From Akkermansia muciniphila (lineage in GTDB: Bacteria > Verrucomicrobiota > Verrucomicrobiia > Limisphaerales > BJHT01): DNA of 54,336 nt. Position numbers and translations under genes: made by a program. Positions 1,368-20,811 of the stretch are shown here, piece by piece. Each line of letters starts with the position of its first letter. The stretch's first letter is position 1. Where the stretch lies: positions 1 through 54,336 of the forward strand of contig CAMAUZ010000055.1 in assembly GCA_945861535.1 (NCBI GenBank), in the 5' to 3' direction. The notes beneath the pieces were generated by a model that had not been told where the DNA came from, did no database searches, and was given only the letters and a program-made list of their open reading frames with translations.

Positions 1368-1932
1368 GATGTTTGCTTTCTACTACGGGTTGACTCACCG
1401 GTGGCATGTTAGTTTCGCCGCCGACAACGGCCAAGATGGGCACCGCGAGGGGGATTGTAAATGCTGGAGGCAATATTTACCGGTGCCCTGAAGCTCAAGG
1501 GACGCACCAACGAAGCACGATCCGATTTCACCATCGTCTTCCCCTCAGCCGGAAGAAGCAGGTGAACCACGAAAGGCACGAAAGCAGCAGGTCTCACGGA
1601 ATGAGAAATCGTCATCAATCGGGAGACACAATTCACCATGGGCCAACCACGATTCGCGCCCGTGTTTTCGTGCCTTTCGTGTCTCTCGCGGTTCACCCCA
1701 ACCGCCGTTTCCAGAGTGCATTCTGCGGCTTGAATTTTGCACCTTCCCTTGAGCTTTATCCTTTGAGCTTTGAACTTCTCCCCATCCCTCCGCGCGAACA
1801 TAACCTGAAGCATGCCCCACACCCTCCCGTCCCCTAATGGCGCCCGGCGATGCCCGTTTCCCCACTGGAAAAATCACGCTCGGGCGCGCACATTTTCCCG
1901 GTCGCCCGCTAAATCGTAACCGCAAAAACTCC
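1368..1932. other. Intergenic region with two palindromic repeat elements
   Basis: No gene is supported here. It holds an imperfect inverted repeat (1561-1583 with 1666-1697, core CCACGAAAGGCACGAAA) separated by about 80 bp, the right arm carrying an extra 9 nt. At 1743-1782 lies a copy, in the opposite orientation, of the element that follows the stop codons at 46867 and 53671 (core AAAGCTCAAAG...AAGCTCAAGGG). The promoter of the DUF1549/DUF1553 gene should lie at the right end but I cannot point to it. Confidence 0.55.
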
Positions 1933-4014: not shown

Positions 4015-4077
4015 GAAACCGAGTTCGTCGAAGAACGCCCTCGCACGAAAATAGCCTCCTTGCTAAATACTCCGCCC

Positions 4078-5685
4078 GTGAATCAACTTTTCTACGGCGA
4101 CAACCTGCACGTCCTGCGCGAACACCTCGCGGACGAGTCCGTGGACCTCATCTATCTCGACCCGCCGTTTAACTCCAAGCGCGACTACAATCTCCTTTTC
4201 AGGTCACCGAAGGGCCACCAGAGCGAGGCGCAGATTGAGGCATTCAAAGACTCGTGGCACTGGGGCGAACAAGCCGAGCGGGAGTTCGATGAAGTCCTTG
4301 GCGGGAAGAACACTGACTTGGCGGAGATGATGCGCGCGCTGCGCCTATTTCTTGGTGAGAACGACATGATGGCCTACCTCACCATGATGGCCAATCGTCT
4401 GCTCGAACTCCACCGCGTCCTAAAACCCACCGGCTCGCTCTATCTCCACTGCGACCCGACCGCCTCACATTATTTGAAAATCGTCCTCGATGGCGCGTTT
4501 GGAAAAGAGAACTTTCGCAACGAAATTTCGTGGCGTCGCTCCCATCCAAAGGGCCTCGCCTTCACGCGCTTTGCCAGTAACCACGATGTAATCTTCGCCT
4601 ACGGAAAGAGCGGCTGGACAACTTGGAATTCCATCTACTCGAAGCACGACCCAGATAGGGCTGCCGAACAATACAGTTTGGTTGATGAGGCCGGTCGACG
4701 CTATCAACTCACGTCCTTGCTCAATCCGAATCCTGACCGGCCAAACCTCACATATGAATTCAAGGGCGTGACAAAAGTTTGGCGCTGGACGAAAGATCGG
4801 ATGCTGGAAGCGGATGCCAAGGGACAAATCGTTGTGCCGAAGGGAGGCAAGGGGATTCCAAGATTCAAGCGTTACTTGGATGAACAAGAGGGCATTCCGG
4901 TCGGCGACTTCTGGGATGACATCGAAATTGTTTCGGGAGCAGAGTCACTTGGCTACCCGACACAAAAGCCATTGGCCTTGCTGGAGCGTATCGTTTCCGC
5001 AAGCAGTAACCCGCACGATGTCGTGCTTGACCCGTTCTGCGGTTGCGGCACCGCCGTTCATGCCGCGCAAAAGCTCAACCGCAAATGGATTGGCATCGAC
5101 ATCACGCATCTGGCCATCTCGCTCATCGAGAAACGGCTCAAGGATGCCTTCGGCGCGAAGTGCAAATTTGAAGTCCGCGGGACGCCCAGAGACCCCGACG
5201 CCGCGCGCGACCTCGCCACGCGGGACAAATACCAGTTCCAATGGTGGGCCGTGTCGCTCGTGGAGGCGCAGCCGTTCCAAGGTAGGAAGAAGGGTGCAGA
5301 CGGCGGCATTGACGGGGTGAAATACTTCCATGATGTGGACAAGGCCGGGGCGCGTAAGATTGTCGTGAGCGTGAAGGGCGGCGAAAACCTCAAGGCCGAT
5401 GATGTGCGGTCCATCATGGCCGTGCGTGAACGCGAGTCCGCTGAAATAGCCCTCTTCATTTCACTCAAGGAGCCGACCGACAAGATGCGCGCCGATGCCG
5501 CATCTGCTGGGTATTACGAGAGCGCCACGGGCAAGAAGTTCCCGCGCGTGCAACTGCTGACCATTGAAGGACTTCTCTCCAGCACGCAGCGCGCCGAACA
5601 CCCCGACCATCAGCCAGACCTAAACTTCAAAAAAGCCAGGCAAGAGGCGCACGGCCAGCAATCCAGCCTGCCGCTGGCCTCCTGA
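4078..5685 (+). CDS. Beta-class DNA methyltransferase fused to a restriction-endonuclease-like domain
   Basis: Residues 1-345 form an adenine-type DNA methyltransferase: catalytic motif IV DPPF at 28-31 comes before the AdoMet-binding motif I DPFCGCGT near 317, the beta-class order. Residues 380-490 look like a PD-(D/E)xK nuclease: GADGGIDG near 407, then a beta-strand ending SVKGG near 431, where Asp and Glu/Lys-type residues of the fold would sit. Modification and cleavage may therefore be joined in one polypeptide. I chose GTG 4078 because family members begin with the NQLFYGDN strand; TTG 4060 is an in-frame alternative. A second methyltransferase gene follows after 26 bp, suggesting one operon. 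No separate type I or III restriction subunit is nearby. The nuclease call is by motif only. Confidence 0.85.
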   Translation: MNQLFYGDNLHVLREHLADESVDLIYLDPPFNSKRDYNLLFRSPKGHQSEAQIEAFKDSWHWGEQAEREFDEVLGGKNTDLAEMMRALRLFLGENDMMAYLTMMANRLLELHRVLKPTGSLYLHCDPTASHYLKIVLDGAFGKENFRNEISWRRSHPKGLAFTRFASNHDVIFAYGKSGWTTWNSIYSKHDPDRAAEQYSLVDEAGRRYQLTSLLNPNPDRPNLTYEFKGVTKVWRWTKDRMLEADAKGQIVVPKGGKGIPRFKRYLDEQEGIPVGDFWDDIEIVSGAESLGYPTQKPLALLERIVSASSNPHDVVLDPFCGCGTAVHAAQKLNRKWIGIDITHLAISLIEKRLKDAFGAKCKFEVRGTPRDPDAARDLATRDKYQFQWWAVSLVEAQPFQGRKKGADGGIDGVKYFHDVDKAGARKIVVSVKGGENLKADDVRSIMAVRERESAEIALFISLKEPTDKMRADAASAGYYESATGKKFPRVQLLTIEGLLSSTQRAEHPDHQPDLNFKKARQEAHGQQSSLPLAS

Positions 5686-5711
5686 ACCGCGCTTGGGGAA
5701 ATTCGGTCAGC

Positions 5712-6710
5712 ATGGGGCAAAACCCGCCGCGTCTGGAAATGTATCAACTCATCCACGCCGATTGCTTTGACTGGTTGCGGAAATGCCCGCCGCACTCGCT
5801 CCAGGCTGTCTGCACCGACCCACCCTATGGCGTGCTGGAGTTCAGCAAGCCGGAGGTTGCCAAGCTGAGGGCAGGCCGTGGAGGTGTGTGGCGTCTGCCT
5901 CCGACCATTGGGGGCAGTCAGCGCGACCCCTTGCCGCGCTTTACCGTGCTCACCGACGCGCAACGAGATGACCTCCGCCGCTTCTTCCATGACTGGGCCA
6001 CGCTGCTCCGGCCCGCCCTGGTGCCGGGCGCGCATGTCTGCATCGCGGGGCATCCCGTGCTTCAGCCATTAGTGCAAATTGCGCTCTCCGAGGCCGGCTT
6101 CGAAATCCGCACCGCCATCATGCGCCTTTATTATAGCTTTCGTGGTGGAGACCGGCCCAAAAACGCCGAGAAGGAATTCCCCGACGTTTGTGTGACCCCC
6201 AAGGGCGCGTATGAGCCGTGGATGCTCTTCCGCAAGCCGATCGAAGCCCGCACCGTCGCGGAAAACCTGCGCCGTTGGAAGACCGGCGGGCTGCGTCGCC
6301 TCTCCACCGACCGGCCCTTGCCCGACTCCATCCCCAGCGGACGGACCCCCGACCGCGAGGAAGCCATCTCCGACCACCCGTGCCTCAAGCCGCAGCACTT
6401 CATGCGCATCATCGTACGCTCGCTGCTCCCGCTCGGCGAAGGAACGGTGCTCGACCCATTCATGGGTTCCGGTTCCACCCTCGCCGCCGCGGAAGCGGTC
6501 GGCTATCCCTCGATTGGCGTCGAGCGGGACGAGCATTACTACGCGCTGGCGCAGCGGGCCATCCCACAACTGGCCACGCTCTACCCACGCTTTCGCGGAG
6601 AAGAATTGGAACTCCAAGCGGACTACCGTTCCGGCCCGGAACTCGACAAACAGCAGATGGATTTCGCTTTGGCGGAGAAATACCGGAAGCGGAAAGCGAA
6701 GGCGGTCTGA
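5712..6710 (+). CDS. Beta-class site-specific DNA methyltransferase
   Basis: This 332-residue enzyme has TDPPYG (motif IV, near residue 36) before DPFMGSGST (motif I, near residue 247), the beta-class arrangement of N6-adenine and N4-cytosine methyltransferases; DPPY favours adenine. Between them lies the target-recognition region containing the YYSFRGGDRPKNAEKEFPD segment. Its start lies 26 bp after the preceding methyltransferase-nuclease gene, so the two are probably co-transcribed. ATG 5739 (MYQLIHADCF) is an equally plausible start that would place the first conserved strand at the N-terminus. No dedicated endonuclease follows, so it is either solitary, partnered with the fused nuclease domain upstream, or phage- or plasmid-derived. 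The recognition sequence cannot be deduced. Confidence 0.88.
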   Translation: MGQNPPRLEMYQLIHADCFDWLRKCPPHSLQAVCTDPPYGVLEFSKPEVAKLRAGRGGVWRLPPTIGGSQRDPLPRFTVLTDAQRDDLRRFFHDWATLLRPALVPGAHVCIAGHPVLQPLVQIALSEAGFEIRTAIMRLYYSFRGGDRPKNAEKEFPDVCVTPKGAYEPWMLFRKPIEARTVAENLRRWKTGGLRRLSTDRPLPDSIPSGRTPDREEAISDHPCLKPQHFMRIIVRSLLPLGEGTVLDPFMGSGSTLAAAEAVGYPSIGVERDEHYYALAQRAIPQLATLYPRFRGEELELQADYRSGPELDKQQMDFALAEKYRKRKAKAV

Positions 6711-6927
6711 TGGGTGGCGAACGCCCCCATCGCCAGGGCCACCCCCTCGTCGTCAGCGGAGCAACGCAGCTTGCGGATTGAGCCACGTATTGAACCCACA
6801 CCCAAGCCAGAGTAAGAGAATGTCGTGAGCACAATCCTCGAAATCACCAACGCCATTGCGCCCTTCGATCCCTGCTCGCAAACAACGGAACCTTGGCCCT
6901 GAACTGAACTAGCTTCACTACCATCCC

Positions 6928-7521
6928 ATGCCCCCGACATCCCCATCACCATTCCGCCTGAGCACCCTCGGCGCGTGGGTGGCTGCGCACATGGCGACCA
7001 TTCCGCTCCTGCTCATGGCCACGGCCGCCATGGCAGGCGGCGACAACCTCGCGTTCTTTGGTCTGCCAGTGGGATTCGGATTGGTGCAACTCATCTTCCT
7101 TCGCCGACAGATTCGGCTCGCCTGGCTGTGGCCGGTGTTGACCGTCGTCGGTTCGTTCCTCGCCATGTTTTTAGGTCTGGGCTGGTTCTGGATTCCGGCG
7201 ATGGGTCTGGGCTTCGGCATCGCTCAACTGCCGCTCCTGCTCGGGCGCGGATTCCGCTTCGCTCCGCTGTGGGCCGTGTGCAGCGGCCTGGGCTGGGTCA
7301 CGGGTTTCTTACTGAACCCCTTGATGGATCGCATACAGGCGTTTCTCACCAGTGGCCTCCCGTCAGGTTCCCCTGAGTTCTGGACCATCTACCTTCCCGT
7401 CGCGCTGACCTACAGCGCCGCGACCGGATTCTATCTCTATTTTTACAGCCCGCAGCCGAATTGCGCGTCAGAGCACCCGACCGCGATCGGTCCCGACGAA
7501 CCGAAAACCATTCTCACATGA
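6928..7521 (+). CDS. Integral membrane protein of unknown function
   Basis: The 197-residue product has about five hydrophobic segments (including LGAWVAAHMATIPLLLMATA, a Phe/Leu-rich stretch near residue 45, and WFWIPAMGLGFGIAQLPLLL) and a short polar C-terminal tail. I do not recognise the family. The gene ends with ATGA overlapping the ATG of the DUF1501 gene, so translation of the two is probably coupled. The 217 bp between the second methyltransferase gene and this one carry no gene and no clear promoter. It may be a membrane partner of the DUF1501 protein, but this is inference from the overlap alone. Confidence 0.7.
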   Translation: MPPTSPSPFRLSTLGAWVAAHMATIPLLLMATAAMAGGDNLAFFGLPVGFGLVQLIFLRRQIRLAWLWPVLTVVGSFLAMFLGLGWFWIPAMGLGFGIAQLPLLLGRGFRFAPLWAVCSGLGWVTGFLLNPLMDRIQAFLTSGLPSGSPEFWTIYLPVALTYSAATGFYLYFYSPQPNCASEHPTAIGPDEPKTILT

Positions 7522-8906
7522 ATCTCCTCCCCCTCTCCCGCCGCGCCGCCATCGCCCGTTTCGGTGGTGGCATGGGCACGCTCGGCTTGCTCGCAGCACT
7601 GCCCGGAAACGCCTTCGCGCTACCAAATGCCAACGCGCCTGCGCTGGCGGTGCCGCACTTTCGCCCGCGCGCCAAGCGGGTCATCCATCTGTTCATGAAC
7701 GGCGGCCCGTTCGGCCCGGATTTCTTCGACCCGAAGCCGGACCTGACCAAGTTCGCCGGACAGCGGCCCGCGGGCGCGGACTTGCGCACGGAGCGGCCCA
7801 CGGGCGGGTTGCTGCCGGTGCCGTTCAAGTTTTCCAATCACGGCAAGTCGGGCCTGCCCGTCAGCGAATTGCTCCCGCTCACCGCGCAGTTCGCCGACGA
7901 CCTCTGCGTGCTCCGCAGCGTTCACACAGACAACCCGAACCACGGCCCCGCCCTGCTCCTGATGAACAACGGCACGATGACGCCGCGCGTGCCCGCGATG
8001 GGTTCGTGGTGCAGCTACGGTCTCGGCACGGAGAACGCGAACCTGCCCAGCTACGTCGTGCTCTGCCCCGGTCGGCCCGTGCGGTTTTCCATTCTCTGGA
8101 CCAGCGCGTTCCTGCCGTCGCAGCACGGCGGCAGCTACATCAATCACTCGAACCTCGACCCCAAGGCGATGATCCCGTGGCTGCACAATCCGCGCACCGC
8201 GCCGGACGCGCAGCGCAAGCAGCTTGACCTGCTGGGCGAGATGAACCGCGAGCACCTCGCCGCGCGCGGCGGCGCGGATGCCGCGTTGCAGGGCCGCATC
8301 GAGGCGATGGAGACGGCCTACCGGATGCAGTTCGCCGCGACGGACGCCTTCGACATCACGCGCGAATCGACGACAACGCGGGAGACTTACGGCAAGGGAC
8401 ATTTCGCCAACGGCTGTCTCATGGCGCGGCGGTTGGCGGAGCGCGGCGTGCGCTTCATCCAGGTCTATTACGGCAACGGCCAGCCGTGGGACACCCACTC
8501 GAACCACGATCCTTCCACGCGCAATCTCGGCAAGGACATCGACCGCCCCATCGCCGCGCTGCTCGGCGACCTGAAACAACGCGGTCTGCTGGAAGACACG
8601 CTGGTCGTCTGGGGCGGCGAGTTCGGTCGCACGCCGGTGAGCGAGAACGGCAACGGCCGCGACCACAACCCGCACGGCTTCTGCATGTTCTTCGCGGGTG
8701 GCGGTACGCGCGGCGGCATGAGCTACGGCGAGACGGATAATTTCGGATTCAAGGCGATGGAAAACCGCCTGCACGTCCACGATGTCCACGCGACCATGCT
8801 CCACCTGCTCGGTATCGACCACGAACGCCTAACCTTCCGTTACGCCGGCCGCGACTTCCGCCTCACCGATGTCCACGGCCACGTTGCGAAAGATATTCTG
8901 GCGTAA
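7518..8906 (+). CDS. DUF1501 (sulfatase-like) Tat-exported protein
   Basis: The 462-residue protein starts with a Tat-like leader (LSRRAAIARFGGGMGTLGLL). DUF1501 signatures follow: KRVIHLFMNGGPFGPDFFDP near residue 55, DDLCVLRSVHTDNPNHGPA near 127, and WGGEFGRTPVSENGNGRDHN near residue 370. The fold is related to alkaline phosphatase and sulfatases, but the substrate is not known. I start at ATG 7518, which overlaps the preceding stop codon by four bases; the upstream in-frame extension lacks any signal. It is the expected partner of the DUF1549/DUF1553 gene at 1933, displaced from it by the methyltransferase pair and the membrane protein gene. The gene ends about 30 bp before a 92-bp palindrome. 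Confidence 0.92.
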   Translation: MNLLPLSRRAAIARFGGGMGTLGLLAALPGNAFALPNANAPALAVPHFRPRAKRVIHLFMNGGPFGPDFFDPKPDLTKFAGQRPAGADLRTERPTGGLLPVPFKFSNHGKSGLPVSELLPLTAQFADDLCVLRSVHTDNPNHGPALLLMNNGTMTPRVPAMGSWCSYGLGTENANLPSYVVLCPGRPVRFSILWTSAFLPSQHGGSYINHSNLDPKAMIPWLHNPRTAPDAQRKQLDLLGEMNREHLAARGGADAALQGRIEAMETAYRMQFAATDAFDITRESTTTRETYGKGHFANGCLMARRLAERGVRFIQVYYGNGQPWDTHSNHDPSTRNLGKDIDRPIAALLGDLKQRGLLEDTLVVWGGEFGRTPVSENGNGRDHNPHGFCMFFAGGGTRGGMSYGETDNFGFKAMENRLHVHDVHATMLHLLGIDHERLTFRYAGRDFRLTDVHGHVAKDILA

Positions 8907-9075: not shown

Positions 9076-9696
9076 CTACTCGTTGACGTTAATCTTCTCC
9101 AAGTCCGCCGCCTGCCAGAAGTCCGCCTTGTCCGCCACCTTCTTGCGAATCGCCGCCACTTGCTCGGGGGTTACTCCTGGCAGGTTGTTACCCCATTCCT
9201 TGTTCTGCCGGATATAGGTTACGACAGCGGCGACCTTGTCGTCGTTCAACACATCCTTCCACGGGGGCATCTGGTTGTTAAAGTCAACGCCTTTGACCTT
9301 GATCGGACCGCCGATGCCATTCAACACGAGGCGCACGATTCGTCCTGAACCTTCAGCCAGAACCCATTCAGAACCGGAAAGCGCTGGAAACTGCCCAGCC
9401 ACACCCAAGCCGTTGTTCTGATGACACCCCGAGCAGGACTCAGCATAGACCTTCTTACCGAGCATATACCGCTCTTCCTCGGGTGATTTCACCAGATAGG
9501 CCTGCAAGTCACTCGCCGAGGTGTAGGGACCGTAAAGCTTCGGATTGAAAGTCCCCCCCACGTTCTCAAACGCCACGCAACCACGATACCCGAGCAACAC
9601 CATCACAAACACCAGCCACATCGGGACTGCACCGATACCAGACTTCGGCTCGGCCGTCTGCAGATTCAGTGCTGATTTCGCGGAATCAGAGTTCAT
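9076..9696 (-). CDS. Membrane-anchored mono-heme cytochrome c
   Basis: The 206-residue protein has one N-terminal transmembrane helix (VPMWLVFVMVLLGYRG) and a class-I cytochrome c domain with heme site CSGCH near residue 90 and a likely axial Met in NNQMPPWKDVL near residue 143. Its ATG overlaps the stop codon of the CcoO-like gene (ATGA), so it is translationally coupled to it and is the last gene of the ACIII operon. By position it resembles the cytochrome subunit (CcoP/FixP) of cbb3 oxidases, but it has one heme and not two. It probably receives electrons from ACIII or from the CcoO-like cytochrome on the outer face of the membrane. Confidence 0.88.
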   Translation of the reverse strand: MNSDSAKSALNLQTAEPKSGIGAVPMWLVFVMVLLGYRGCVAFENVGGTFNPKLYGPYTSASDLQAYLVKSPEEERYMLGKKVYAESCSGCHQNNGLGVAGQFPALSGSEWVLAEGSGRIVRLVLNGIGGPIKVKGVDFNNQMPPWKDVLNDDKVAAVVTYIRQNKEWGNNLPGVTPEQVAAIRKKVADKADFWQAADLEKINVNE

Positions 9697-10937
9697 TTCG
9701 CGGGAGGTGCGGGCTTGGGGGCTTCCGGGGCCGGAGTAACAACCGCCGCCGGTTTTGCCGGGGTGACCGCCGGCACAGAGGTCGCAGTAGCGGCCGTTGG
9801 GGCGGTCGCAACCGGCGGAGCCGCAGGCGCCGGGGCCTTCGGAGTCGGAGCTTCCACCAACCCCGGACCGGACCGCAGACTCTGCAGGTAAGCCACCAAT
9901 GCCTCGGCTTCCGGCTTGGGAACGATTTCAAACTGTTCGCCGACAAGTCGAATCGCCTGCTGATACCCGGGTGTACCAGGAGTCGAACGCGGACGTTTGG
10001 TGAAAAGATAGGGATAGGCCGGCATCAACGAGTCCACCCCGGCGTTCGACTCTTCCGAAGTGATGATCCGGGGATCAAAGAGATGCGAGAGATGCCAGAC
10101 CCGCGAATGTTGGCGATCGCCAATATTACTCAGGTCCGGTCCCATCCGCTGGGCACCGACCATGACCACGGGATCATAGAGATAGTCCAACGCCACGGAG
10201 CGCCGCCGCCCCCAGCCCCGGTCCATGTCCACGCCGCGCAGATTCATTTTCACCAAAGTCTTGGCACCTGCCGTAGTCAGCTTCTTATTGAGCTTGTCGA
10301 GATCGTCCTTCGACAAGCCCCGGGCCAGCACCACCGGCACCGTCAGTCCGCCGCCCAGCGAGGGTCGAATCCGCAGCAGCAACTTCGCCACGTCTGCCGG
10401 GGTCTTGCCCGCCGAAGTAAGGATTACAGTGAAGCTATCCCCCGGATGCGCCGGAACTTCGCCGGGCTTGGCGGCCGCAGGTGCCGCGACGACCGTGGCG
10501 ACTTTGAGTGTGGCACCCGCCTCCATCAGTTTGTTGGTGAGATACTCGGTAAACTCGCGATCCAATCCCTTGATCTCCATGGGCAGTCTGCCGAGCGCAT
10601 TCACCGCCGCAGCCTGGGCCAGGTCAGGACGAACTTCCTCACTCAAAACCCGCCCGAGCGCCGCCAGATTCGGCCCCGTCGCAGTCAGAGTCAGATCAAA
10701 ATCCGACGGCTCCTGAGTAACTTGCTGGCTATGACAGTAGTAGCAACCGTTCGCGCGATAGACCTCCGCACCCTGTTGCGCCAGACCGGGACGCGGCGAC
10801 GGATACGTCTGCCCCGTCTCGACACTCTCCTCCGGTTGGTCGCCACCCAATTGCCAGGTGGGAATGAAGACAAACCCGAACCACGAGAGCGAGAGACTGA
10901 ACAAGGCGCTCAGGAAAAGCAGGGGCCCGTGATTCAT
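9693..10937 (-). CDS. ccoO: CcoO-like cytochrome c with two inserted L7/L12-CTD-like modules
   Basis: The start MNHGPLLFLSA (10937) and the membrane helix that follows are typical of CcoO/FixO, as are heme site CYYCHSQQV (residues 65-73), RMGPDLSNIG near 265 and MPAYPYLF near 305. Unlike standard CcoO, about 180 residues separate the heme motif from the rest. That insert reads as two copies of the ribosomal protein L7/L12 C-terminal fold: residues 78-148 (DFDLTLTATG ... GLDREF ... LMEAGATLKV) and 168-232 (SFTVILTSAG ... GLSKDDLDKLNKKLTTAGA). The last 60 residues are Ala/Pro-rich. ATGA overlaps couple it to the genes on both sides. The 19-residue upstream extension to 10994 overlaps the preceding gene and is rejected. 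It is probably an electron carrier paired with the CcoN-like protein. Confidence 0.85.
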   Translation of the reverse strand: MNHGPLLFLSALFSLSLSWFGFVFIPTWQLGGDQPEESVETGQTYPSPRPGLAQQGAEVYRANGCYYCHSQQVTQEPSDFDLTLTATGPNLAALGRVLSEEVRPDLAQAAAVNALGRLPMEIKGLDREFTEYLTNKLMEAGATLKVATVVAAPAAAKPGEVPAHPGDSFTVILTSAGKTPADVAKLLLRIRPSLGGGLTVPVVLARGLSKDDLDKLNKKLTTAGAKTLVKMNLRGVDMDRGWGRRRSVALDYLYDPVVMVGAQRMGPDLSNIGDRQHSRVWHLSHLFDPRIITSEESNAGVDSLMPAYPYLFTKRPRSTPGTPGYQQAIRLVGEQFEIVPKPEAEALVAYLQSLRSGPGLVEAPTPKAPAPAAPPVATAPTAATATSVPAVTPAKPAAVVTPAPEAPKPAPPAK

Positions 10938-12412
10938 CGTTTCCCTCCCGCTTTGACTGTGCAACCACACCAACCGGCCACCTGTGTGGCGCAAGCGCGG
11001 CCGAAGTGCCGGCAGACCAACAACAGATTCGCCAGCAGCATGACATGCCCGGCAACGAGCAACAGTTCACCCAAGGTGCTGAACCGCAGCGCCGGCAAGG
11101 TCAGTTTGATGACATCGACAAACGGCACGCCCAGCTTACCCATCTCGTGTCCTTGGATGAATCCGCCCGCCGCCACCACACCAATCGTCAGCACCGTTCC
11201 CATCACTGCCAGCCAGAAATGCGCATTCATCAACTTCCGGGACGGCCATTCGATCCCGACCAATTTCGGCACAATGTAATAAATCGCCCCAAAGGCTCCC
11301 ATCGCGAAAAAGGCATACAGCCACAGCAAACGCAACGCCGTCAGAAGCTGCGTGAGCTGCACACTCCGGTTGGCATCCGGAAGGGAAATCACCGCCGTCA
11401 CCAATCCCGCGATCAGCAGACTCACCGCGGAAAAACCAAAGAAACGAATCGGACCTGCTGCTTCCATCTGCCGATACGCGCCGGACACGGTCCGGTGCAG
11501 ATTCACCGCGGTCGCCAGGATGGGAACCAGCAGAAACGTCCCCGCAATCAGGCTCACACTGACCAACCAGGCGGGCAGCGGTGAAGACACTGTGAGCCCA
11601 ATCCAGCCGCCCGCCAGCAGAAGAGTGCCGAAACCGAAGAGCGCCAGATTGGAGTTATGCAGCGGACGCTGGAGGATTTTGGGAATGAAGTAGTAGAGAT
11701 TGGCCACCCCAAGCGGCAGCAGAACAAGATATTGCAAATTGCTCGCAAACCAAGTGTGAACCGCCAGTTGTACCACGCCGCGCACCGGATGACAGAGCAA
11801 CAAGTAGCTCGCCGCCGAAAAGGCCCACGGAAAAATGAACAACGCTGCCACCAGATACCACTGTGCGGGATAAAGCTGCCGTTCGCTGCGCGCATGGAAG
11901 GTCAGGAGTCCCTGTACCGCGATCACGGCATAACTGATGAACAGCAGGAGCACGGCGTGACGCGGCATTTCGATCCATTCAAAGCCCGTGTTGTAACCGG
12001 CCAGAATGCCGACCAGTCCCACCGTCACACCAAGATTCCAGAAGCCAGCACCGACCATGGTCACTCCGGGTCCTTGCAGCGTTGTCCGGCCCAAGCGACA
12101 GAGTATCCACAGCGCGGTAGCCAAGCCGGCTTGGATGGCAAATCCGTAGAGAAAGGTGTTGGTAAACGCTGGATAGAGCCGCCCATAGGTCAACCATGGA
12201 CAATGTGCGAGAAACTCACCGGAATGGAGCTTCACCGACGCCAGCAGTCCGAACACACTCGCCAGCACCACCCAGAGAACGGCACTGCCAAACATCAACA
12301 GGAGCGGCCCCCGGCACGAGGTATCAATTTCCGCAGGCGACGCCGACGCGCCGACATGCTCGGAGGTATCCGGCAGGGTGGAAGCTTGGGCAGCTATGGA
12401 GGAACCGCTCAT
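10934..12412 (-). CDS. CcoN-like membrane protein lacking all heme and CuB ligands
   Basis: The 492-residue, roughly 12-helix protein aligns with CcoN, the catalytic subunit of cbb3 oxidases, through GRLYPAFTNTF (77-87), YYFIPKILQRP (240-250), YYIVPKLVG (378-386) and NAHFWLA (396-402). Every ligand position differs. The low-spin heme His of RPLHTNA is Phe83. The CuB His of WYGHN is Ser224 in WFASN. The HH pair is missing from GGWIGLTVSSP (268-278). The two His of GHVHAG are Leu360 and Leu362 in ALRLLW. It should therefore not reduce oxygen and may bind no heme. Its conserved scaffold and coupling (ATGA) to a CcoO-like gene suggest a structural or quinone-binding role beside ACIII. Ligand positions are known from P. 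stutzeri cbb3; the alignment here is by eye. Confidence 0.85.
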   Translation of the reverse strand: MSGSSIAAQASTLPDTSEHVGASASPAEIDTSCRGPLLLMFGSAVLWVVLASVFGLLASVKLHSGEFLAHCPWLTYGRLYPAFTNTFLYGFAIQAGLATALWILCRLGRTTLQGPGVTMVGAGFWNLGVTVGLVGILAGYNTGFEWIEMPRHAVLLLFISYAVIAVQGLLTFHARSERQLYPAQWYLVAALFIFPWAFSAASYLLLCHPVRGVVQLAVHTWFASNLQYLVLLPLGVANLYYFIPKILQRPLHNSNLALFGFGTLLLAGGWIGLTVSSPLPAWLVSVSLIAGTFLLVPILATAVNLHRTVSGAYRQMEAAGPIRFFGFSAVSLLIAGLVTAVISLPDANRSVQLTQLLTALRLLWLYAFFAMGAFGAIYYIVPKLVGIEWPSRKLMNAHFWLAVMGTVLTIGVVAAGGFIQGHEMGKLGVPFVDVIKLTLPALRFSTLGELLLVAGHVMLLANLLLVCRHFGRACATQVAGWCGCTVKAGGKR

Positions 12413-12427
12413 TCAGGTAGGCGGCAG

Positions 12428-12799
12428 TTACTCGAAGCTGACCGGCTTGGTCGCTTCGAGGACACGCGAGAGGAGATTGGAACGACCGGCGTCCGGAGAT
12501 TTCCAATGCTGAATGGTCAACTCCATCGCCCGATCCACGGGGAGCCGGACAATTCCCTTGGATTGGTCAACCCAGCCGTAAGTTTTCAGAGCCTCGGCAT
12601 TTGCGGCATTCAAATCACGGGCGGCATCCGCCCGCTCTTTGGCGCGCTTCTGACCGAGCGCCTCGGGTTTGGTGATACGCTGCATCGTCCGTACCAGACC
12701 AAGGACGATCAGGAAAGACCCGACGAGGGCCACGACGTAAGCCGCCTTGGAAGCGCACTTGCTGCTGCAACAACTCTTGGATTCAGATTCGTGGGTCAC
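12428..12799 (-). CDS. Small single-helix membrane protein with N-terminal Cys motif
   Basis: The 123-residue product carries the cysteine cluster SCCSSKC (about residues 9-15), one transmembrane helix (VVALVGSFLIVLGLV), a charged helix, and YGWVDQSKGIVRLPVDRAMEL near residue 75. Similar small proteins with a GIVR(L/I)P(V/I)DRAMEL segment accompany ACIII and oxidase clusters in other bacteria, to my recollection. The Cys cluster could bind metal such as copper, which would suit an oxidase-assembly role, but this is inference. It lies 37 bp after actF and 15 bp before the CcoN-like gene, inside the operon. Confidence 0.75.
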   Translation of the reverse strand: MTHESESKSCCSSKCASKAAYVVALVGSFLIVLGLVRTMQRITKPEALGQKRAKERADAARDLNAANAEALKTYGWVDQSKGIVRLPVDRAMELTIQHWKSPDAGRSNLLSRVLEATKPVSFE

Positions 12800-12836: not shown

Positions 12837-14165
12837 TCACTTGGCACCTCCGCGCGCCGGACCGCCAGCAACAGGCATCTCGACATACACCCCCATGGTC
12901 TCCGCAATCCGAGGATCGCGCTGCGGATAGGGCGGATGACTTGCAAAGGCTTTGAGAAAAAGTTTGTAAAGAATCACGCCCATGAAGGCGACACACACCA
13001 CATCCTGCCAGCCGAGGGCGACCCCGTTCGGGTGAATAACCGGCATGATGTTAAACTGCATGTCGAAGTAGTGCATGATCCACGCCCAGACACAGACCGG
13101 GACGATGACGGACAGTTTCATCTTGGCGTCGATGCGCAGCAGAGCGAGGAACGGCAGGAAGAAGTGACCGAAGATGATCAGCAACCCGACATACCACCAC
13201 GTTCCCTTCTCGCGCAGCACATACCAGAAGGTCTCTTCCGGAACGCCCGCATTCCAGATCAAGAAATACTGCGAGAAGTGGATGTAGGCATAGAACACGG
13301 TGAACGCGAAGAGCAGCACGCCGATGTCATGAAACTGCCGTTCGCGGAGGACATGCTTTAGTTGTCCCTCTTTCTTGAACTTCAAGGCCAGCAGGTAGGT
13401 GGTCGCCAAGGTGGTCCAAACGCTGCCGGCAAAATAGTAAACGCCGTACATCGTGGAGAAGAATTGATGCTGGAGTGATTTCATCCAGTAAATCGCCGCC
13501 AAGGTCAGGGTGATCGCAAAGACAAAGATGCCACCCGCGGCGTACCGGCGCATCCGGATGGTGCAACTCGCCGAACCGGTCTTGTCCTGTTCGAGCGAGG
13601 CCCGGCGGAGTCCATGAGCGAGGAAACCCCAAGCGAGGAACAAAGAGACTGACACGACGTAAAAGGCATTCTCATTGAACAGCGCCGCCTTCACATGCAG
13701 CGCGTGGTCCGTGTGCGGGTCCAAGTGCATCCACGGATAAATCTGACTCTTGGCCAGCAACAGGATGGGAATGAACAGAATAAGCATCCACGGAAACAAG
13801 AGGCAGGCGATGTGTTCCAAGAAGCGACGGATCGGCACCGACCAATTCGCATCCATCAGATGGTGAAGAATCACCAGGAACAACGACCCGAGACAGATGC
13901 TCAGGAAGAACATGAACGCGGTGAGATAGGAGTAGGCGAATTGTTTCGCACCAGTGACCCCGGCCGCCGCCGAACAGCAATCATCGTGGTCAGCTTTGTC
14001 CGTCTTGCCGACCTTCGCGGGAGCATCAGCGGCCTTGCCGTGGGTATCCGCAGCGCTGACCGGCAGGCTCAGGGAAACTCCGAGCACCAACGCCAGCACC
14101 AACCCGAGGCAACGACGCCAGCCAGCCAGCCATCCAGCAGCCATGGTATGCAGTTCAAATCTCAT
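12837..14165 (-). CDS. actF: ACIII subunit ActF, quinol:cytochrome c oxidoreductase membrane subunit
   Basis: The 442-residue protein is a polytopic membrane subunit of alternative complex III, the quinol:cytochrome c oxidoreductase that replaces the bc1 complex. It has an N-terminal signal-like segment, a His/Cys/Lys-rich loop (residues 40-65), and about ten helices with family-typical stretches such as WMKSLQHQFFSTMYGVYYFAG and VFYAYIHFSQYFLIWNAGVPEE. ActF is related to ActC (NrfD-like) and forms part of the proton-translocating membrane arm. The gene follows actE after 2 bp. ATG 14144 (MAAGWLAGW) is an in-frame alternative start. Confidence 0.92.
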   Translation of the reverse strand: MRFELHTMAAGWLAGWRRCLGLVLALVLGVSLSLPVSAADTHGKAADAPAKVGKTDKADHDDCCSAAAGVTGAKQFAYSYLTAFMFFLSICLGSLFLVILHHLMDANWSVPIRRFLEHIACLLFPWMLILFIPILLLAKSQIYPWMHLDPHTDHALHVKAALFNENAFYVVSVSLFLAWGFLAHGLRRASLEQDKTGSASCTIRMRRYAAGGIFVFAITLTLAAIYWMKSLQHQFFSTMYGVYYFAGSVWTTLATTYLLALKFKKEGQLKHVLRERQFHDIGVLLFAFTVFYAYIHFSQYFLIWNAGVPEETFWYVLREKGTWWYVGLLIIFGHFFLPFLALLRIDAKMKLSVIVPVCVWAWIMHYFDMQFNIMPVIHPNGVALGWQDVVCVAFMGVILYKLFLKAFASHPPYPQRDPRIAETMGVYVEMPVAGGPARGGAK

Positions 14166-14167
14166 AA

Positions 14168-14827
14168 CTATTTACCCAGCGCACGCTGAAATTCCGCCGG
14201 CACATCGGTCGCCCGCCCAAGCTTGCTCAGTTGCAGCGCCCGCACATAGGCGATGATCGCCCAGCGGTCCTGGGGGGTGATGTTCTGGCCGTAGCCGCCC
14301 ATAAGGTTCCGTCCGTTCGCGATGACATGGAACAACTCGCCATCCGGCATCATGACAATTCGTTTATCGTGAAGAGTCGCCACCACAGCCATACCTAGTT
14401 TCTTGGTGATACCATTGCCGTCACCCTGCGCCCCGTGGCACGGGAGGCAACTGATCGCGTAGCGTTCGCGTCCCCGGGCCATGAGTTTCTCCGTCACTGG
14501 AACGGGAATAGTATCGACCATGTTGGTAGTTCCGGCGACACGGCCGGTGAAGGTGGGACTGTCACGCAGCGGGGAGTCACTGTAGGAGGCGACCAGCTCG
14601 CCCTTGACCAGACGGGCTGCACTCCGGGGAACCGTGCCAGTGACAAACGGCTGCGAACTGATGCCGCCGGGCAGGAACGCATTGGGTTCCTGCGGCCGCA
14701 GCTTCTGCTGCCGGTCCATGTCCGGGAAGACCTCAATGGGCGGCTTGCGGGAGATGCTCCCGCGGAAGCCCGCAATGCTGACCACAGCCACCGCGAGCAG
14801 CAAAAAGATTAACAAAAAGTAGCGCAT
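14168..14827 (-). CDS. actE: ACIII mono-heme cytochrome c subunit ActE
   Basis: This 219-residue protein begins MRYFLLIFLLLAVAVV, a lipoprotein-less membrane anchor or signal, and contains one heme c site, CLPCHGAQGDG (near residue 130), in a region typical of ActE (GRERYAISCLPCH). ActE is the peripheral monoheme cytochrome of ACIII and hands electrons to a soluble or membrane cytochrome. I chose ATG 14827, one base beyond the actD stop codon, over the longer start at 14839 that would overlap actD. It sits 2 bp before actF in the operon. Confidence 0.92.
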   Translation of the reverse strand: MRYFLLIFLLLAVAVVSIAGFRGSISRKPPIEVFPDMDRQQKLRPQEPNAFLPGGISSQPFVTGTVPRSAARLVKGELVASYSDSPLRDSPTFTGRVAGTTNMVDTIPVPVTEKLMARGRERYAISCLPCHGAQGDGNGITKKLGMAVVATLHDKRIVMMPDGELFHVIANGRNLMGGYGQNITPQDRWAIIAYVRALQLSKLGRATDVPAEFQRALGK

Positions 14828-14828
14828 G

Positions 14829-15359
14829 TCACTCCTCAACCAGTTCGATATGCTTGCTGCCCGCCGCTTCGAGCAGCTTGCGGGTTTCGGTCTCGGAATA
14901 CTTCAAGTCGTCACATTCGATGACGAGAATGAAACGGTCGTGGGAGGCCCCGGCGAACCGCTTGTTTTTCAACAACGGATGATGCAGACGAGGCAGCCGG
15001 TTTAGGAACAGCATTCCGAAAAGGCTCCCGAACGACGCCAGGAGAATCGTCAACTCATACGAGACCGGGAAGGCGAATAAGGGACTGAACAGAGGCTTGC
15101 CACCGATTACGATCGCGTAGTCGAAGCTGTTCATGAAGTAGATCATCGACATGCCGGTGGTAAAACCCGTGATTCCACCGCCGAAGGTGAACCAGCCGAC
15201 CTTGGAATTCTTCAGCCCCATGGCGGCATCCATGCCATGTACCGGAAAGGGCGTATGCACGTCCCACCGACGATAGCCCTGGTCACGGACCGTCTCCGCC
15301 GCGTGGATTGCAGCCGCGGTAGTGTCGAACTCTGCGATTATTCCGTATGGTCTTGCCAT
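14829..15359 (-). CDS. actD: ACIII subunit ActD (DUF3341)
   Basis: The 176-residue protein is the two-helix ActD subunit (DUF3341). It opens with a small alpha/beta region (MARPYGIIAEFDTTAAAIHAAE, VHTPFPVHGMDAAMG) and has transmembrane helices at about residues 55-80 and 95-120 (YELTILLASFGSLFGMLFLN). A cytoplasmic HDRFILVIE region follows. ActD packs against the ActC membrane arm; a specific catalytic role is not known. It lies 66 bp after actC, the largest gap between consecutive genes of this operon, and one base before actE. Confidence 0.92.
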   Translation of the reverse strand: MARPYGIIAEFDTTAAAIHAAETVRDQGYRRWDVHTPFPVHGMDAAMGLKNSKVGWFTFGGGITGFTTGMSMIYFMNSFDYAIVIGGKPLFSPLFAFPVSYELTILLASFGSLFGMLFLNRLPRLHHPLLKNKRFAGASHDRFILVIECDDLKYSETETRKLLEAAGSKHIELVEE

Positions 15360-15425: not shown

Positions 15426-16853
15426 TTAGTGATGCCCTCCGACCTTGGCCCCACCCAACGGATGGTGCGGGTCTGCCTGCGGCGTCACGCCCTTGACTTC
15501 CGAAATGGCAATCATGGGCAGGAACCGCATGAACAGGAGGAACAGTGTGAAAAACAAACCAAAGCTTCCGACAAAGGTCATGATGTCCACCCAGGTCGGC
15601 GTGAAGTAGCCCCAGTTGGAAGGGAGATAGTCCCGGTGCAACGAGGTGACAATGATGACGAAGCGCTCGAACCACATGCCGATATTGACAAAGATCGACA
15701 CGATGAAGACGAACACCATGTTGCGGCGCCACGAACGCTTCCAGAAGAGATGCGGGCAGATGACGTTACAGGTAATCATGCTCCAATAAGCCCACCAATA
15801 GGGGCCAAAGGCGCGGTTCTGGAAGGCGTAGAGTTCGTAGGGGTTGCCGCCATACCAAGCGATGAAGAACTCCATGCCGTAGGCGTAGCCCACGATCGAA
15901 CCGGTCGCGAGGATGACCTTGCACATCATATCAACGTGTTTCACGGTGATGATGTCTTCCAGTTTGCAGATGGTCCGCAGCGGGATGAGCAGCGTCAGCA
16001 CCATCCCGAAGCCGGAAAAGACAGCGCCCGCGACGAAATACGGCGGGAAGATGGTGGTATGCCAGCCGGGCACTTGTGACACGGCGAAGTCAAAAGAGAC
16101 GATGGAGTGAACGGAGAGCACCAGCGGAGTAGAGAGACCGGCTAGCAGCAGGTAGGCTTTCTCGTAATTGCTCCAATGCCGGTTGGAACCCGTCCAACCC
16201 AAAGCAAAGAAGCCATAGGCGAACTTACGCAGCTTGGTCGTCGCCCGGTCACGCAAGGTCGCGAGGTCTGGAACCAATCCCGTATACCAGAATAGCAATG
16301 ACACCGTTCCATAAGTCGAGACAGCGAACACGTCCCATAGCAGCGGTGATTTGAACTGCGGCCAGATCGAGTTGGCATTCGGCAGCGGAAACAACCACCA
16401 AGCAAGCCAGATGCGTCCGACATGGATCAGCGGGAAAATGCCGGCGCAAGCCACGGCGAACAAAGTCATGGCTTCGGCCGCGCGATTAACCGAGGTCCGC
16501 CATTTCTGCCGCAAGAGGAAGAGAATCGCCGAAATCAGGGTGCCTGCATGACCGATGCCGATCCAGAAGACGAAGTTGGTGATGTCCCACGCCCAACCGA
16601 CGGGATGGTTCAAACCCCACACCCCGACACCGGTCGAGATCAGATAGCCGATGCAGCAGAACATCACCGTCATCAGCAGCACGCTCGGAATAAACGCCCA
16701 CCACCACCACACCGGCGTTTTGCCCTCGACGATGCCAGAGATGTGATCGGAGATATAGCCGAGACTGCGGTTATTGAGCACGAGCGGCTCACGCACCAAT
16801 TCCGCCGGGGGCGGAGCGATCTTCACGGGTGAATTATCAGGAGCCGAGGCCAT
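15426..16853 (-). CDS. actC: ACIII quinol-binding membrane subunit ActC (NrfD/PsrC-like)
   Basis: The 475-residue, roughly ten-helix protein belongs to the NrfD/PsrC family and is the quinol-oxidising membrane subunit of ACIII. Recognisable features are [11 protein letters not shown], the helix-loop segment [15 protein letters not shown]-like ([14 protein letters not shown]), and [25 protein letters not shown] near residue 250, a hallmark of this family. The tail is His/Gly-rich ([13 protein letters not shown]). Start and actB stop codon overlap as TAATG, so translation is coupled. Residues of the quinone pocket cannot be assigned by eye. Confidence 0.94.
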
Positions 16854-19800
16854 TAGTGGGATCCTTTCTTCTGATCGTGGGCCGCCGGGTGGCTGTCATG
16901 CTTCTCAAAGGGATCGCCATTGCGCTTGGTGTACTCGTCCAGATTGTGGGGCAGCGGATGCTGCTTGTAGTCCGGCATCAGTGGATTGGGATTCCGCACT
17001 TTGGCCAGATAAGTCAGTCGCGGACGCGTATCCAGGAAGCCGAGCACCGCATAGTTGCGGTCCTGCTCCTTCAATTTAGAAACCCGGCTGTTCGGATCTA
17101 AGATATTGCCGAAGGTAATCGCCTCGGCCGGGCATACCTGCTGACAGGCGGTCTTGATCGCGCCATCCGGCACCGCCACGTCACCCGACGCGCCGACTTT
17201 CACCTTCTGTGCAATCTTACCACCCTCGATGCGTTGTAGGCAGAACGTACATTTCTCCATCACGCCACGCATCCGCACGGTGACGTCCGGGTTCTTGGCC
17301 ATCTTGACCAGTTCCCACGAGTCGGCGTTCGTACGCTTCAGCGGTCCCTGGTAGAGATTCTCAACCGGGCGCTTGTTGTAATCGAAGAAATTGAACCGGC
17401 GAACCTTCCACGCGCAGTTGTTCGAGCAATACCGAGTGCCCACGCAACGATTGTAGGCCATGACATTCAGACCTTCCTCGTCATGGACGGTCGCGTTGAC
17501 CGGACACACGCTCTCACACGGCGCGCTCTCGCAATGCTGACACAGCATCGGCTGCGTCACCATCTGCGGATCATCAATCCAAGGCTGGGAGGTCTGACTC
17601 TCGTCGGACCCGGTCGTCTTGAACTGCATCTTGACGGTCACATCCCCGCTGAAATAGCGGTCCAGACGCATCCAGTGCATTTCGCGACCACGAGCCACCT
17701 GGTCTTTGCCGACAATCGGAATGTTGTTCTCGCTCTGACACGCGATGACACACGCCGAGCAGCCCGAGCAGGCACTCAGATCAATCGCCATACCCCACTG
17801 ATGGACATTGCTCTTGAGTTCCGGAGACGCCACATAGGGATGCTTGTAAATACCCTGGGGCTGCTTGGGATTCTTGGGATCGGTCGGGATAAAGCCGACG
17901 TGCGACGCGCCGTCCAAGTCCATGTTCTTCGCGAAATCCGGCTTCGAGTTGAACTGGCTAAGATTCGCCTCGCGAATAATGGGACGGCCTTCCATCGACC
18001 AATGATCCTGAGTGCACGAGAAGTCGAAGAGCGTCTCTCTACCGGAGACTTTCGCCCCCACGGCAATCGCCGCAGAACCGCGCAGGGCGTAGGCATTAAA
18101 ACCGACCTTCTTTCCGTCGAAATTTGCAACCCGGCCGCCCTTCTCACGTCCGTAGCCAAGCGCGAGACACAGCGAGTAGTCCGCCTGTCCCGGTTGAATC
18201 CAGATAGGGGCGGTGATCTTCCGACCACCAAGCTCGATCTCTACCAACTCGCGGTTCTTGAGTTTAAGTTCAGCCGCCGTCTTGCGACTGATCAGGACAG
18301 CGTTGTCCCACGTCATTTTGCTGACGGGGTCCGGCATTTCCTGAAGCCAGCCGTTGTTCGTGTAGCGACCATCATCCACGCTGTAGTCACTGTGGAAAAC
18401 TACTTCCAGACTATCCTTGGTTGGAGCTGGAAAAACAGAGGCCAAGGAAATCTTCGCGCCGATTTCGGTCCAGTCGAGCTTGGGAGCCACCGCCTTGGCC
18501 GCCGCGCCAGTGACATAGCCGTCGTGGAGATATTGCTTCCACTTCTCCTCGGCAAGCGTGCCGCCGGTCTGCTGCGCGAACGTCTCCCGCGCAATGTCAT
18601 ACGGCCGGGTCGTGGTCTCGCCGGCGAGCCGTGCGATTACTTCCAACTCCGTAATGCCATCGAAGAGCGGCGCAATCAGCGGTTGAATAGGGACCAGCGT
18701 GCCGTCGCTCGTGCGGACATCGCCCCACGATTCGAGATAGTGCGCCGCCGGCAGATGCCAGTTACAGCCCGCGAAAGTCTCGTCCTCGTAATAACTGACG
18801 CGAATGACATTCTTGGCCTTGCGTTGCAGGTCGCTCCATTTCAAGTCAGCCGGAGCATTGTAGGCCGGGTTGCCGCCAAGGATAACCAAGGTGCCCACCT
18901 TGTCGTCCCGGAGCGCCTGAGCCAGTTGCGCGAGCGAGGCATCTTCCGTCACCGCGCGTTCACGAAGCTCGACAGTCTGGCCAAGACTGCCCGTCGCCGC
19001 ATTGATCGCATGGGCGATAAGATGAACCGCCAGCGGCTGCCGATAGCCCGCGAGCACCGCGACTTTGCCGCGGTTTTTTTCGTTGGCCAAATCCTTCGCA
19101 CACTCAGTGATCCACGCCGGATCGACCTTGCTGCCTGCCGATAGCTTGACCAGCGCCGCAGTCACACCGCTTTCGACCTGAGCCTTGGTCAGGCGGATAA
19201 CTTCCGTCGCAATCTGCGCCGCGACCTGAATCACATTGCTCGAAGGAATTCGCAAGCGATGGTCCGCCCCTGCACCGGTGAGAGTCATCAGAGACTCCAC
19301 GGCATAGAGCCGGTTCATCGGGTCGCCAGGCTTGGTGACTTTGCGACCTTTCGCAAAACCCCGGGTCATCCTTTGACCATCTTGTTCGCCACCGAGAAAG
19401 TCACTATCCAAGGCCAAGACCACCGACGCCCGGTCGAGTTGGTAATAGGCCGAAGCCGGTGCGCCCGCCACGACCGAAGCGGCTTCGTCGTGGATGCGAA
19501 AATCCACCGGCTCATAAACCGCCCAGTTGGACTGCGGCAGCTTCTGTTTGAGCAACGCCTGCACGCGGGCGCGTGACGGCGAGTTGCTGCTTTCCGCCAA
19601 CACCCATAGACCAGCGCCAGCCGCAGCCGATGCTTTCTTCGCTTCCGAAGTCAGCGCATCCAGCGCGGCTTCCTTGGTGGTCGAGTTGCCCTTGTTACGA
19701 TATTGCTGCGCACGATCGGGATCGTAGAGACCGAGGATCGACGCCTGCGCGTAGGCATCCGTGGCACCGCTGCTGTCGGGATGCTGGCTGTTCCCTTCGA

Positions 19801-20164
19801 TTTTGGTAGGACGGCCCTCGTTCGATTTGACGACCAACGGAATGCCGCCGCGACGCGACGGAAACGCGGTCGCGAAAAATTGCGCCACGCCGTGCGTGTA
19901 ATTCTCCGGCAACCGCGAAAATGGATAAATCTTCTCTTCCGGCCGACGACAACCGGTCAGCCCAAAGCCCGCGAACAGGACCGACGCCGACATCAGCTTC
20001 ATGAAGGTACGCCGGGTAACTTCATCCTTCATCTCGCTCGCGCCGGCCGGGAACTCGCGCTCCGCCCAGTTCTGAAACTCCGGCGAGTCGGACAATTGCT
20101 CCAAGCTCCGCCAATAGGTCGGGCCGGAATCCGGTTCAGGACAGGCTGGTGGAATGGTCTTCAT
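16853..20164 (-). CDS. actB: ACIII large iron-sulfur subunit ActB (molybdopterin-oxidoreductase-like/FeS fusion)
   Basis: The 1103-residue subunit begins with a typical ActB N-terminus (TYWRSLEQL, residues 16-24) and a Tat motif (RRTFMKLM) leading into a lipobox-like LTGC. A long molybdopterin-oxidoreductase-like domain follows; known ActB proteins hold no molybdenum cofactor. The last 310 residues form a ferredoxin-type domain: [16 protein letters not shown] near 795, [17 protein letters not shown] near 880, [11 protein letters not shown] near 905, [12 protein letters not shown] near 973 and [13 protein letters not shown] near 1008. Together these fit one [3Fe-4S] and three [4Fe-4S] clusters. 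I start at ATG 20164, which overlaps the actA stop codon as ATGA; the extension to 20206 is rejected. It passes electrons from the ActC quinol site towards the cytochrome subunits. Confidence 0.95.
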
Positions 20165-20811
20165 CGATGACAGGCGGAGCAATTCTGGGAAGCGTTGACC
20201 TTCCAATCGTGGACAAACTTGGCACCCTGCGTCTTGGCAAAATTCTGCGGGGGCACCCAGTCCAAGTTATAGACTTGATCGGGCGGACGGAGGTTCGGAG
20301 CAGGGTTGCGATGACAGTCGAGACAGAAGGTCATGCTGAGCGACTTGGCGTGCCGCACCTCGTCCATCTTGTTCACCGGCCCGTGGCAATGCACGCAACT
20401 GACCCCGCGATTCACATGCACCGAGTGATTGAAATAAACGTAGTCCGGAGTCTTATGAATCTGCACCCAGGGGATCGGCTTACCGCTCTGCGCGCTCTCA
20501 CGGACCAGCGCCAGCTTCGGGTCATCCTTCAACACCTGGTTGTGACAGTTCATGCAGGTGTTCGCCGAGGGAACATTCGAGTACCACGACTTCTCGACGC
20601 CATTGTGACAATAGCGGCAGTCCAGCCCCAACTGCCCCGCATGAATCGTGTGCGAGAAGGCCACCGGCTGGATCGGCTGATACCCGACGCGCGTGTACTT
20701 CGGAGTGAAGTAATACGTCAGGCCCGCCGTCACGCCGGCACCCAGCAACAAGGCGCCGATGAGCACCTTGCCGGGCAACTTATTCGTCCACTTAGGAAAG
20801 ACGTCTGACAT
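20161..20811 (-). CDS. actA: ACIII pentaheme cytochrome c subunit ActA
   Basis: This 216-residue protein has one N-terminal membrane helix (VLIGALLLGAGVTAGLTYYF) and five CxxCH heme sites: CRYCH, CMNCH, CVHCH, CLDCH and CSACH, the last ending the protein. Extra His residues in FSHTIH and FNHSVH fit axial ligands. This is the classic ActA pentaheme subunit, the electron exit of alternative complex III. It is the first gene of the operon (actABCDEF, small membrane protein, CcoN-like, CcoO-like, cytochrome c). The promoter must lie in 20812-21040, where I see no convincing -35/-10 pair and no Shine-Dalgarno site before the ATG. Confidence 0.95.
   Translation of the reverse strand: MSDVFPKWTNKLPGKVLIGALLLGAGVTAGLTYYFTPKYTRVGYQPIQPVAFSHTIHAGQLGLDCRYCHNGVEKSWYSNVPSANTCMNCHNQVLKDDPKLALVRESAQSGKPIPWVQIHKTPDYVYFNHSVHVNRGVSCVHCHGPVNKMDEVRHAKSLSMTFCLDCHRNPAPNLRPPDQVYNLDWVPPQNFAKTQGAKFVHDWKVNASQNCSACHR

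Follow-up and report, generated by a model that had tools for sequence, protein, structure and literature searches.

The window analysed here, a stretch of 54,336 nucleotides from a genome labelled Akkermansia muciniphila (contig CAMAUZ010000055.1 of assembly GCA_945861535.1), carries within an operon for alternative complex III (ACIII) a gene whose product has the fold of CcoN, subunit I of cbb3 oxidases, and has lost every residue that would ligate heme or copper there. We refer to this CcoN-like gene and its product as N, to the adjoining CcoO-like and CcoP-like genes as O and P, and to individual loci, genomes, and families by the prefixes L, G, and f. Judged from its sequence, N is unable to bind heme b, heme b3, or CuB in the usual way, and its oxidase function has almost certainly been lost. 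N is a non-catalytic CcoN and, instead of working as an oxidase, probably acts as a docking and wiring piece, a scaffold leading from ACIII via c hemes to another oxidase.

The relationship of N to the oxidases is clear. The COX1 family PF00115 matches it with 130 bits (E 1e-37), a score that excludes chance homology, and CcoN chains in the PDB match it by sequence at an E value of about 1e-25. An AlphaFold2 model of N built from a 21-sequence alignment (mean predicted local distance difference test score, pLDDT, 89.4) has CcoN as its top structural matches in Foldseek and VIA-align, and so the predicted fold is that of CcoN. Compared with Pseudomonas stutzeri CcoN (3mk7_D), the model superimposes over 442 residues with a Z score of 50.4, a root mean square deviation of 1.6, and 23% identity. 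The NCBIfam ccoN equivalog TIGR00780, with a cut-off of 583 bits, gives N only 109.7 bits, and it is likewise not reached by two ACIII-linked N proteins that retain their ligands (225 and 253 bits).

The cofactor sites within this fold are gone. We take H60, H345, H347, and the cross-linked Y251 of P. stutzeri CcoN to be site residues and matched them to the 3mk7 sequence. The numbers of the CuB ligands, H207, H257, and H258, were taken from the accessible text of PMC3578206. Aligned with P. stutzeri CcoN, and likewise in a 151-row alignment, N has F83 at H60, S224 at H207, L360 at H345, and L362 at H347, and its HH loop is without His, with T274 and V275 or a gap at H257/H258; these are the replacements that the first-pass annotation had read by eye. 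N has none (0/6) of the six His that hold the two hemes and CuB in CcoN, and the site of Tyr251 is occupied by G268. The structure-based comparison that the same annotation had proposed agrees, in that neither the superposition of folds nor the alignments place a conserved His at the heme/CuB sites, and the positions of N that correspond to the heme/FeB ligands of NorB have no His either. Relocation of the ligands was considered and rejected, as the family has no conserved His, Met, or Cys at new positions that would plausibly make a substitute pair. Cys71 and Tyr76 of N occur in 0.55 and 0.70 of ligand-less members and in none of the liganded ones, and they perhaps form a new contact or disulfide.

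The active site is among the most eroded parts of N. Of 139 columns conserved in liganded N, ligand-less N keeps the 7 at the active site with a median of 0.09 and the other 132 with one of 0.63 (Mann-Whitney p 4e-5, not corrected for kinship). Scaffold columns such as W125, W221, P280, G77, and G90 are kept in 0.99-1.00 of ligand-less members. R57, R437, S240, and T215 (P. stutzeri numbers), which presumably have heme-propionate and K-channel roles, are also eroded.

The first-pass annotation had the coordinates of N right, 10934-12412, but the gene runs on the minus strand: the plus frame is broken by a stop, while the minus frame is open over 492 amino acids. As had been claimed, the gene lies inside an ACIII operon, in the order actABCDEF-orfX-N-O-P on one strand, and is translationally coupled to O, with N ending and O beginning in one overlapping ATGA at 10937-10934. 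A second such ATGA, at 9696-9693, joins the stop of O to the start of P.

This arrangement is widespread. N matches were found in 53 of the 58 genomes searched, the window's own included, and actF-orfX-N-O-P is kept in all 20 loci fetched from the same order, with act genes preceding as far as the contigs reach. Across the phylum Verrucomicrobiota, a profile of 21 N members matches 108 of 337 genomes, a figure that includes canonical CcoN, and the loci fetched represent part of the N genes in the matching genomes. From these we collected 150 CcoN-type open reading frames (ORFs) of at least 380 amino acids and at least 100 bits, a sample that favours intact genes because shorter ORFs were not counted. 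The 124 N genes analysed below are those behind actF; loci without actF in the available stretch were dropped, and L003, which duplicates the window gene, was left out. The site has been lost in 98 of the 124 (0-3 His remaining, Tyr in 0/98). The remaining 26 have 6/6 His and the Tyr and show the same gene order as the ligand-less operons. A search beside act genes in other genomes, also proposed at first pass, has thus produced 98 ACIII-linked ligand-less N, and together with the homologue searches these operons reject a loss confined to this genome.

Within the window's order the ligand positions vary without pattern. The idea that this whole order is ligand-less was rejected, since L010, L014, and L017 are liganded; so is L204, a locus near the window by ActC. 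One genome, G039, has both forms of the operon (liganded L010 and ligand-less L150). The loci with named sources, fetched through ActC, are the best 80 of 589 matches. Among them, the isolates Cephaloticoccus capnophilus CV41 (L222) and C. primus CAG34 (L233) have a ligand-less N, and the N of Chthoniobacter flavus Ellin428 (L223:14592-16074) has no H60, H207, or HH-loop His and is followed by coxA; its last two ligand positions are unreliable, as its row consists of a 321-amino-acid first piece only. This Chthoniobacter gene is split between two frames, through either decay or sequence error. A further 44 named ACIII loci have titles of other phyla: coxA is nearby on the same strand in 31, and an orfX match stands behind actF in 10. 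Two of the 44 are linked to a liganded subunit, L241 to a liganded N and L269 to a fused, liganded CcoNO behind ACIII. The former, from a metagenome-assembled genome (MAG) labelled Gemmata sp., holds its liganded N in an ACIII-cbb3 operon that also includes a CcoS-like gene, and it reflects either transfer or a binning error. In other classes of the phylum, L073-L080 encode a liganded CcoN-like protein of 453-461 amino acids together with an O-like gene, with no act genes in the available stretch, and most of them have a gene for a cytochrome c of about 600 amino acids upstream.

Loss of the ligands coincides with loss of a putative maturation gene of the CcoS/FixS type. In liganded operons, the gap between orfX and N is 191-336 bp (25/25 with an orfX call) and encodes a small membrane-type protein; Pfam FixS (CcoS) matches 5/5 of the ORFs scanned there, 2 of them above the cut-off. 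In ligand-less operons the median gap is 14 bp, and 77 of 78 are shorter than 150 bp. The window belongs with the latter, its 15-bp gap (12413..12427, minus strand) leaving no CcoS-like ORF upstream of N. A CcoS/FixS-like profile, seeded with three ORFs from liganded loci and widened on those loci, detects the gene upstream of N in 26/26 liganded and 0/98 ligand-less operons. Owing to the way the profile was made, the 26/26 are not independent; the gap lengths and the named loci agree with them. In the named loci the profile matches 5/5 liganded and 0/25 ligand-less rows (24 loci, the AV5 MAG L209 counting as two rows), at least five of the genomes being shared with the first set. The curated CcoS model TIGR00847 has no match in the window genome (G000), but the divergent CcoS-like ORFs of most liganded genomes in the class escape it too, as do those of G036 and G037, so its silence alone proves little. 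Of 22 same-order genomes examined, 12 match it, 11 of these on a contig that also has a canonical CcoNO gene. The earlier description of N as non-oxygen-reducing is strongly supported by the absent ligand His and by the loss of this CcoS-like gene.

The c-type hemes follow the opposite course to the b-type hemes and copper. O (9693..10937, minus strand; likely start ATG at 10937, the mechanical ORF beginning at 10994) encodes a CcoO-like mono-heme cytochrome c with a FixO domain and a CYYCH motif, and this CxxCH is kept in 97 of 98 ligand-less operons. Taken over 9693-10994, the CcoO-like protein is 433 amino acids long, and its relatives are mostly shorter, often 195-260 amino acids; its insertion includes a weak ribosomal L7/L12-like stretch (PF00542, E 1.3e-4), and its tail is Pro/Ala-rich. 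P (9076..9696, minus strand) encodes a CcoP-like mono-heme cytochrome c with CSGCH. Canonical CcoP has two heme motifs; window P has one CxxCH, and one is also the rule in liganded operons (23 of the 24 P genes found, the remaining one having two). Among ligand-less operons the motif of P is kept in 95 of the 96 where P was found, the exception being cut by a contig end. Thirteen operons (11 of f59, 2 of f66) have an additional mono-heme cytochrome c gene where orfX would otherwise be. On these counts, the b-heme and copper sites have disappeared from the N-O-P module, while its c hemes have been kept or added to.

A second oxidase sometimes follows. Considering only loci with at least 3.6 kb beyond P, 23 of 75 ligand-less ones, all in four families (f59, f60, f64, f72), and 0 of 10 liganded ones have an A-type COX1 gene as the next gene in the same orientation. 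At L084 this COX1 is followed by COX3 and by COX2 with a CuA motif, and L100 is similar by sequence. The window genome has one other COX1, of 609 amino acids, on a different contig with a CuA-motif ORF nearby.

The first-pass annotation had allowed that N might be a decaying pseudogene of a single genome, and we checked this by comparing nonsynonymous and synonymous substitution rates (dN/dS). The gene is intact and has homologues in 98 operons, and dN/dS of N is 0.05-0.24 in 10 ligand-less pairs, on which grounds the pseudogene reading was rejected. Between the window and a congener, N has a dN/dS of 0.05 and the adjacent actF 0.045; among five liganded N pairs, four have values of 0.01-0.07 and the fifth was not computable. 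With values of 0.05-0.24, ligand-less N is under purifying selection, perhaps somewhat relaxed.

How often the ligands were lost is uncertain, with at least three losses on a tree of N or 8-10 on a tree of the act genes. The N tree (139 rows, ligand columns removed, other-class rows cut to three, a quick method, long branches flagged) needs three, in a clade of 95, in f62, and in one f58 genome. The ActC-F tree was computed without a mixture model and covers 3 outgroups and 87 of the 124 operons, of which 10 are liganded. Its well-supported branches require six changes, and the count of losses comes to 8-10 when regain is excluded. The disagreement could stem from long-branch attraction in the N tree, from transfer of the N-O-P cassette, or from an old duplication. 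The clearest single loss is that of L105 (f58), which has none of the six His and neither the Tyr nor the CcoS-like gene, while its relatives L095 and L096 are fully liganded.

The rest of the window operon, all on the minus strand, is that of an ACIII: actABCDEF, with a multiheme ActA, an Fe-S ActB, an NrfD-type ActC, and ActD. ActA (20161..20811) is a multiheme cytochrome c with five CxxCH motifs in its sequence, ActB (16853..20206) has molybdopterin-like and Fe-S domains, ActC (15426..16853) belongs to the NrfD family, and ActD (14829..15359) matches PF11821 (E 5.7e-64). An ActE-like mono-heme cytochrome c with CLPCH (14168..14839) is assigned by position and homology, and an ActF-like ACIII subunit (12837..14165), which has no Pfam match, by position and conservation. 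The small orfX product (12428..12799) has no Pfam or NCBIfam match. Elsewhere in the window, at 1837-8906 on the plus strand, two N6/N4 DNA methylase genes are flanked by PSCyt2/PSD1 and DUF1501 genes.

Several known systems resemble this one in part. The liganded ACIII-linked cbb3 (C-family) oxidases of other Verrucomicrobiota have the same operon order and homologous N, O, and P, the last two again mostly with a single heme motif apiece, but they possess the six His, the active-site Tyr, and the CcoS/FixS-like gene, none of which the window form has. An ACIII-linked C-type oxidase in 'Opitutaceae' is a case cited in the accessible part of PMC8498564. With P. stutzeri cbb3 the window system has in common the whole CcoN fold (3mk7), the scaffold motifs, and the heme motif of CcoO, and it differs in having no cofactor ligands, no CcoS, and a P with one heme motif. 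In the ACIII-aa3 supercomplex of Flavobacterium johnsoniae, an active oxidase partner is contacted through its subunit III (PMC8361435, as far as its text was available). There ACIII is paired with a heme-copper oxidase module, as it probably is here; unlike in F. johnsoniae, the gene order here places a ligand-less C-type core after ACIII and, in four families, ahead of an aa3-type oxidase.

The finding also touches the verrucomicrobial methanotrophs. In G209, G099, G111, and G129, which belong to one genus group, g66, probably Methylacidiphilum, N is ligand-less, and it is very likely the same gene as the 'cbb3-type' oxidase described for these methanotrophs. G129 has a nitrous oxide reductase gene within its act cluster, as does Methylacidiphilum caldifontis IT6 according to the available text of PMC11102522. 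The five COX1 matches of G209 are two A-type proteins (one called by NCBIfam, one by our own profile), one of 568 amino acids, putatively the ba3-type enzyme of the literature, one beside a NorC-like gene, and N; matches of similar lengths are present in G099, G111, and G129. A canonical cbb3 was not seen in these four genomes, in one search that scored all candidates and another that scored at most four per genome. In the portions available, PMC8498564 describes isolated methanotroph strains, one excepted, as having cbb3, aa3, and ba3 oxidases, with ACIII adjoining the cbb3 genes, and gives these methanotrophs and Opitutaceae as the only cases of a C-type oxidase beside ACIII; PMC6688271, on strain Kam1, links high O2 affinity to that cbb3, and PMC10205796 restates the three oxidase types. 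All three papers count the oxidase as functional, in passages that do not mention missing ligands; the sequence argues against it. In the open full-text literature, as far as its text could be consulted, we found no mention of a CcoN that lacks its ligands and adjoins ACIII, subscription papers lying outside this scope.

The mechanism that we consider most plausible begins with descent: N would derive from a functional ACIII-linked cbb3 oxidase of the kind that other Verrucomicrobiota still encode with an unchanged gene order. A single membrane complex would contain ACIII, orfX, N, O, and P, with N left solely to hold the two cytochromes c, CcoO-like and CcoP-like, beside ACIII. Electrons from quinol would leave ACIII by the ActA/ActE hemes, travel over the c hemes of O and P, and reach a different oxidase. 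This acceptor would be an aa3-type enzyme, whose genes lie directly downstream in four families; the window organism has them in another part of its genome. It was already proposed at first pass that N is a membrane partner of ACIII, and conservation of the operon is the basis on which that proposal still appears sound. Several points tell against the scaffold. Fifty-two of the 75 ligand-less loci with room downstream, the window included, have no adjoining A-type oxidase gene, and with adjacency restricted to so few families, four, it is a trend and not proof. A purely structural role leaves retention of the whole multi-helix fold unexplained. One heme may also persist in a few lineages, because 1-3 of the six His survive in some members: H60 and H347, which together ligate low-spin heme b, in f62, H60 in f59, and H60 plus, in 4/6, H207 in f64.

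These retained ligands, along with the appearance of Cys71 and Tyr76 as frequent new residues, would fit a new chemistry in the vacated core of N, such as quinone binding, ion passage, or one low-spin heme b held by unusual ligands. We regard this as rather unlikely given the patternless ligand positions of the window's order, the erosion of R57, R437, S240, and T215, and the lack of a new conserved His/Met pair. It is also unlikely, if still worth holding in view, that N is an assembly or stability factor that only folds or holds ACIII (or orfX) in the membrane, with transfer through O and P a separate matter. The strict gene order of the fetched loci and the superior conservation of structural Trp, Gly, and Pro columns would fit such a factor, but nearly every ligand-less operon retains the c-heme motifs of O and P, an indication that electrons are transferred within this same unit.

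That N is a relic, slowly decaying and held by its position in an essential operon, is very improbable. Ligand-less members do have longer branches, the C. flavus copy is in two frames, the AV5 MAG copy (L209) is in two pieces, and broken copies of less than 380 amino acids fall outside our count; dN/dS, however, is far below 1 in all 10 pairs, and N keeps its operon context in 98 loci. We give hardly any credence to N as a still active oxygen or NO reductase with other ligands. Its matches to PF00115 and to cbb3 families and its cbb3 status in the methanotroph papers would suggest one, but no His is conserved at the sites, and the Tyr and the maturation gene are gone, each in 98/98. Returning to the docking and wiring role, we put at about even the chance that a cofactor-free subunit I has been recruited repeatedly, across much of a class, as a structural adaptor that connects ACIII via c-type hemes with a separate terminal oxidase, in a respiratory assembly of ACIII, dead cbb3, and aa3.

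The presence of a heme-copper oxidase subunit I is usually read as evidence that an organism respires oxygen, and that of cbb3 genes as pointing to a microaerobic, high-affinity lifestyle. Family searches place N with the cbb3 oxidases, yet in 98 of the 124 operons examined the usual binding of heme and copper is impossible, and Methylacidiphilum methanotrophs are very likely among these cases. The liganded forms in the same operon place, the repeated losses, and the cbb3 naming in the methanotroph papers go beyond what the first-pass annotation had described. Repeated loss of the ligands and of CcoS, with the c hemes kept, amounts to a natural experiment on the non-catalytic roles of an oxidase core in a respiratory assembly, and what N does is a question that can be tested in cultured species.

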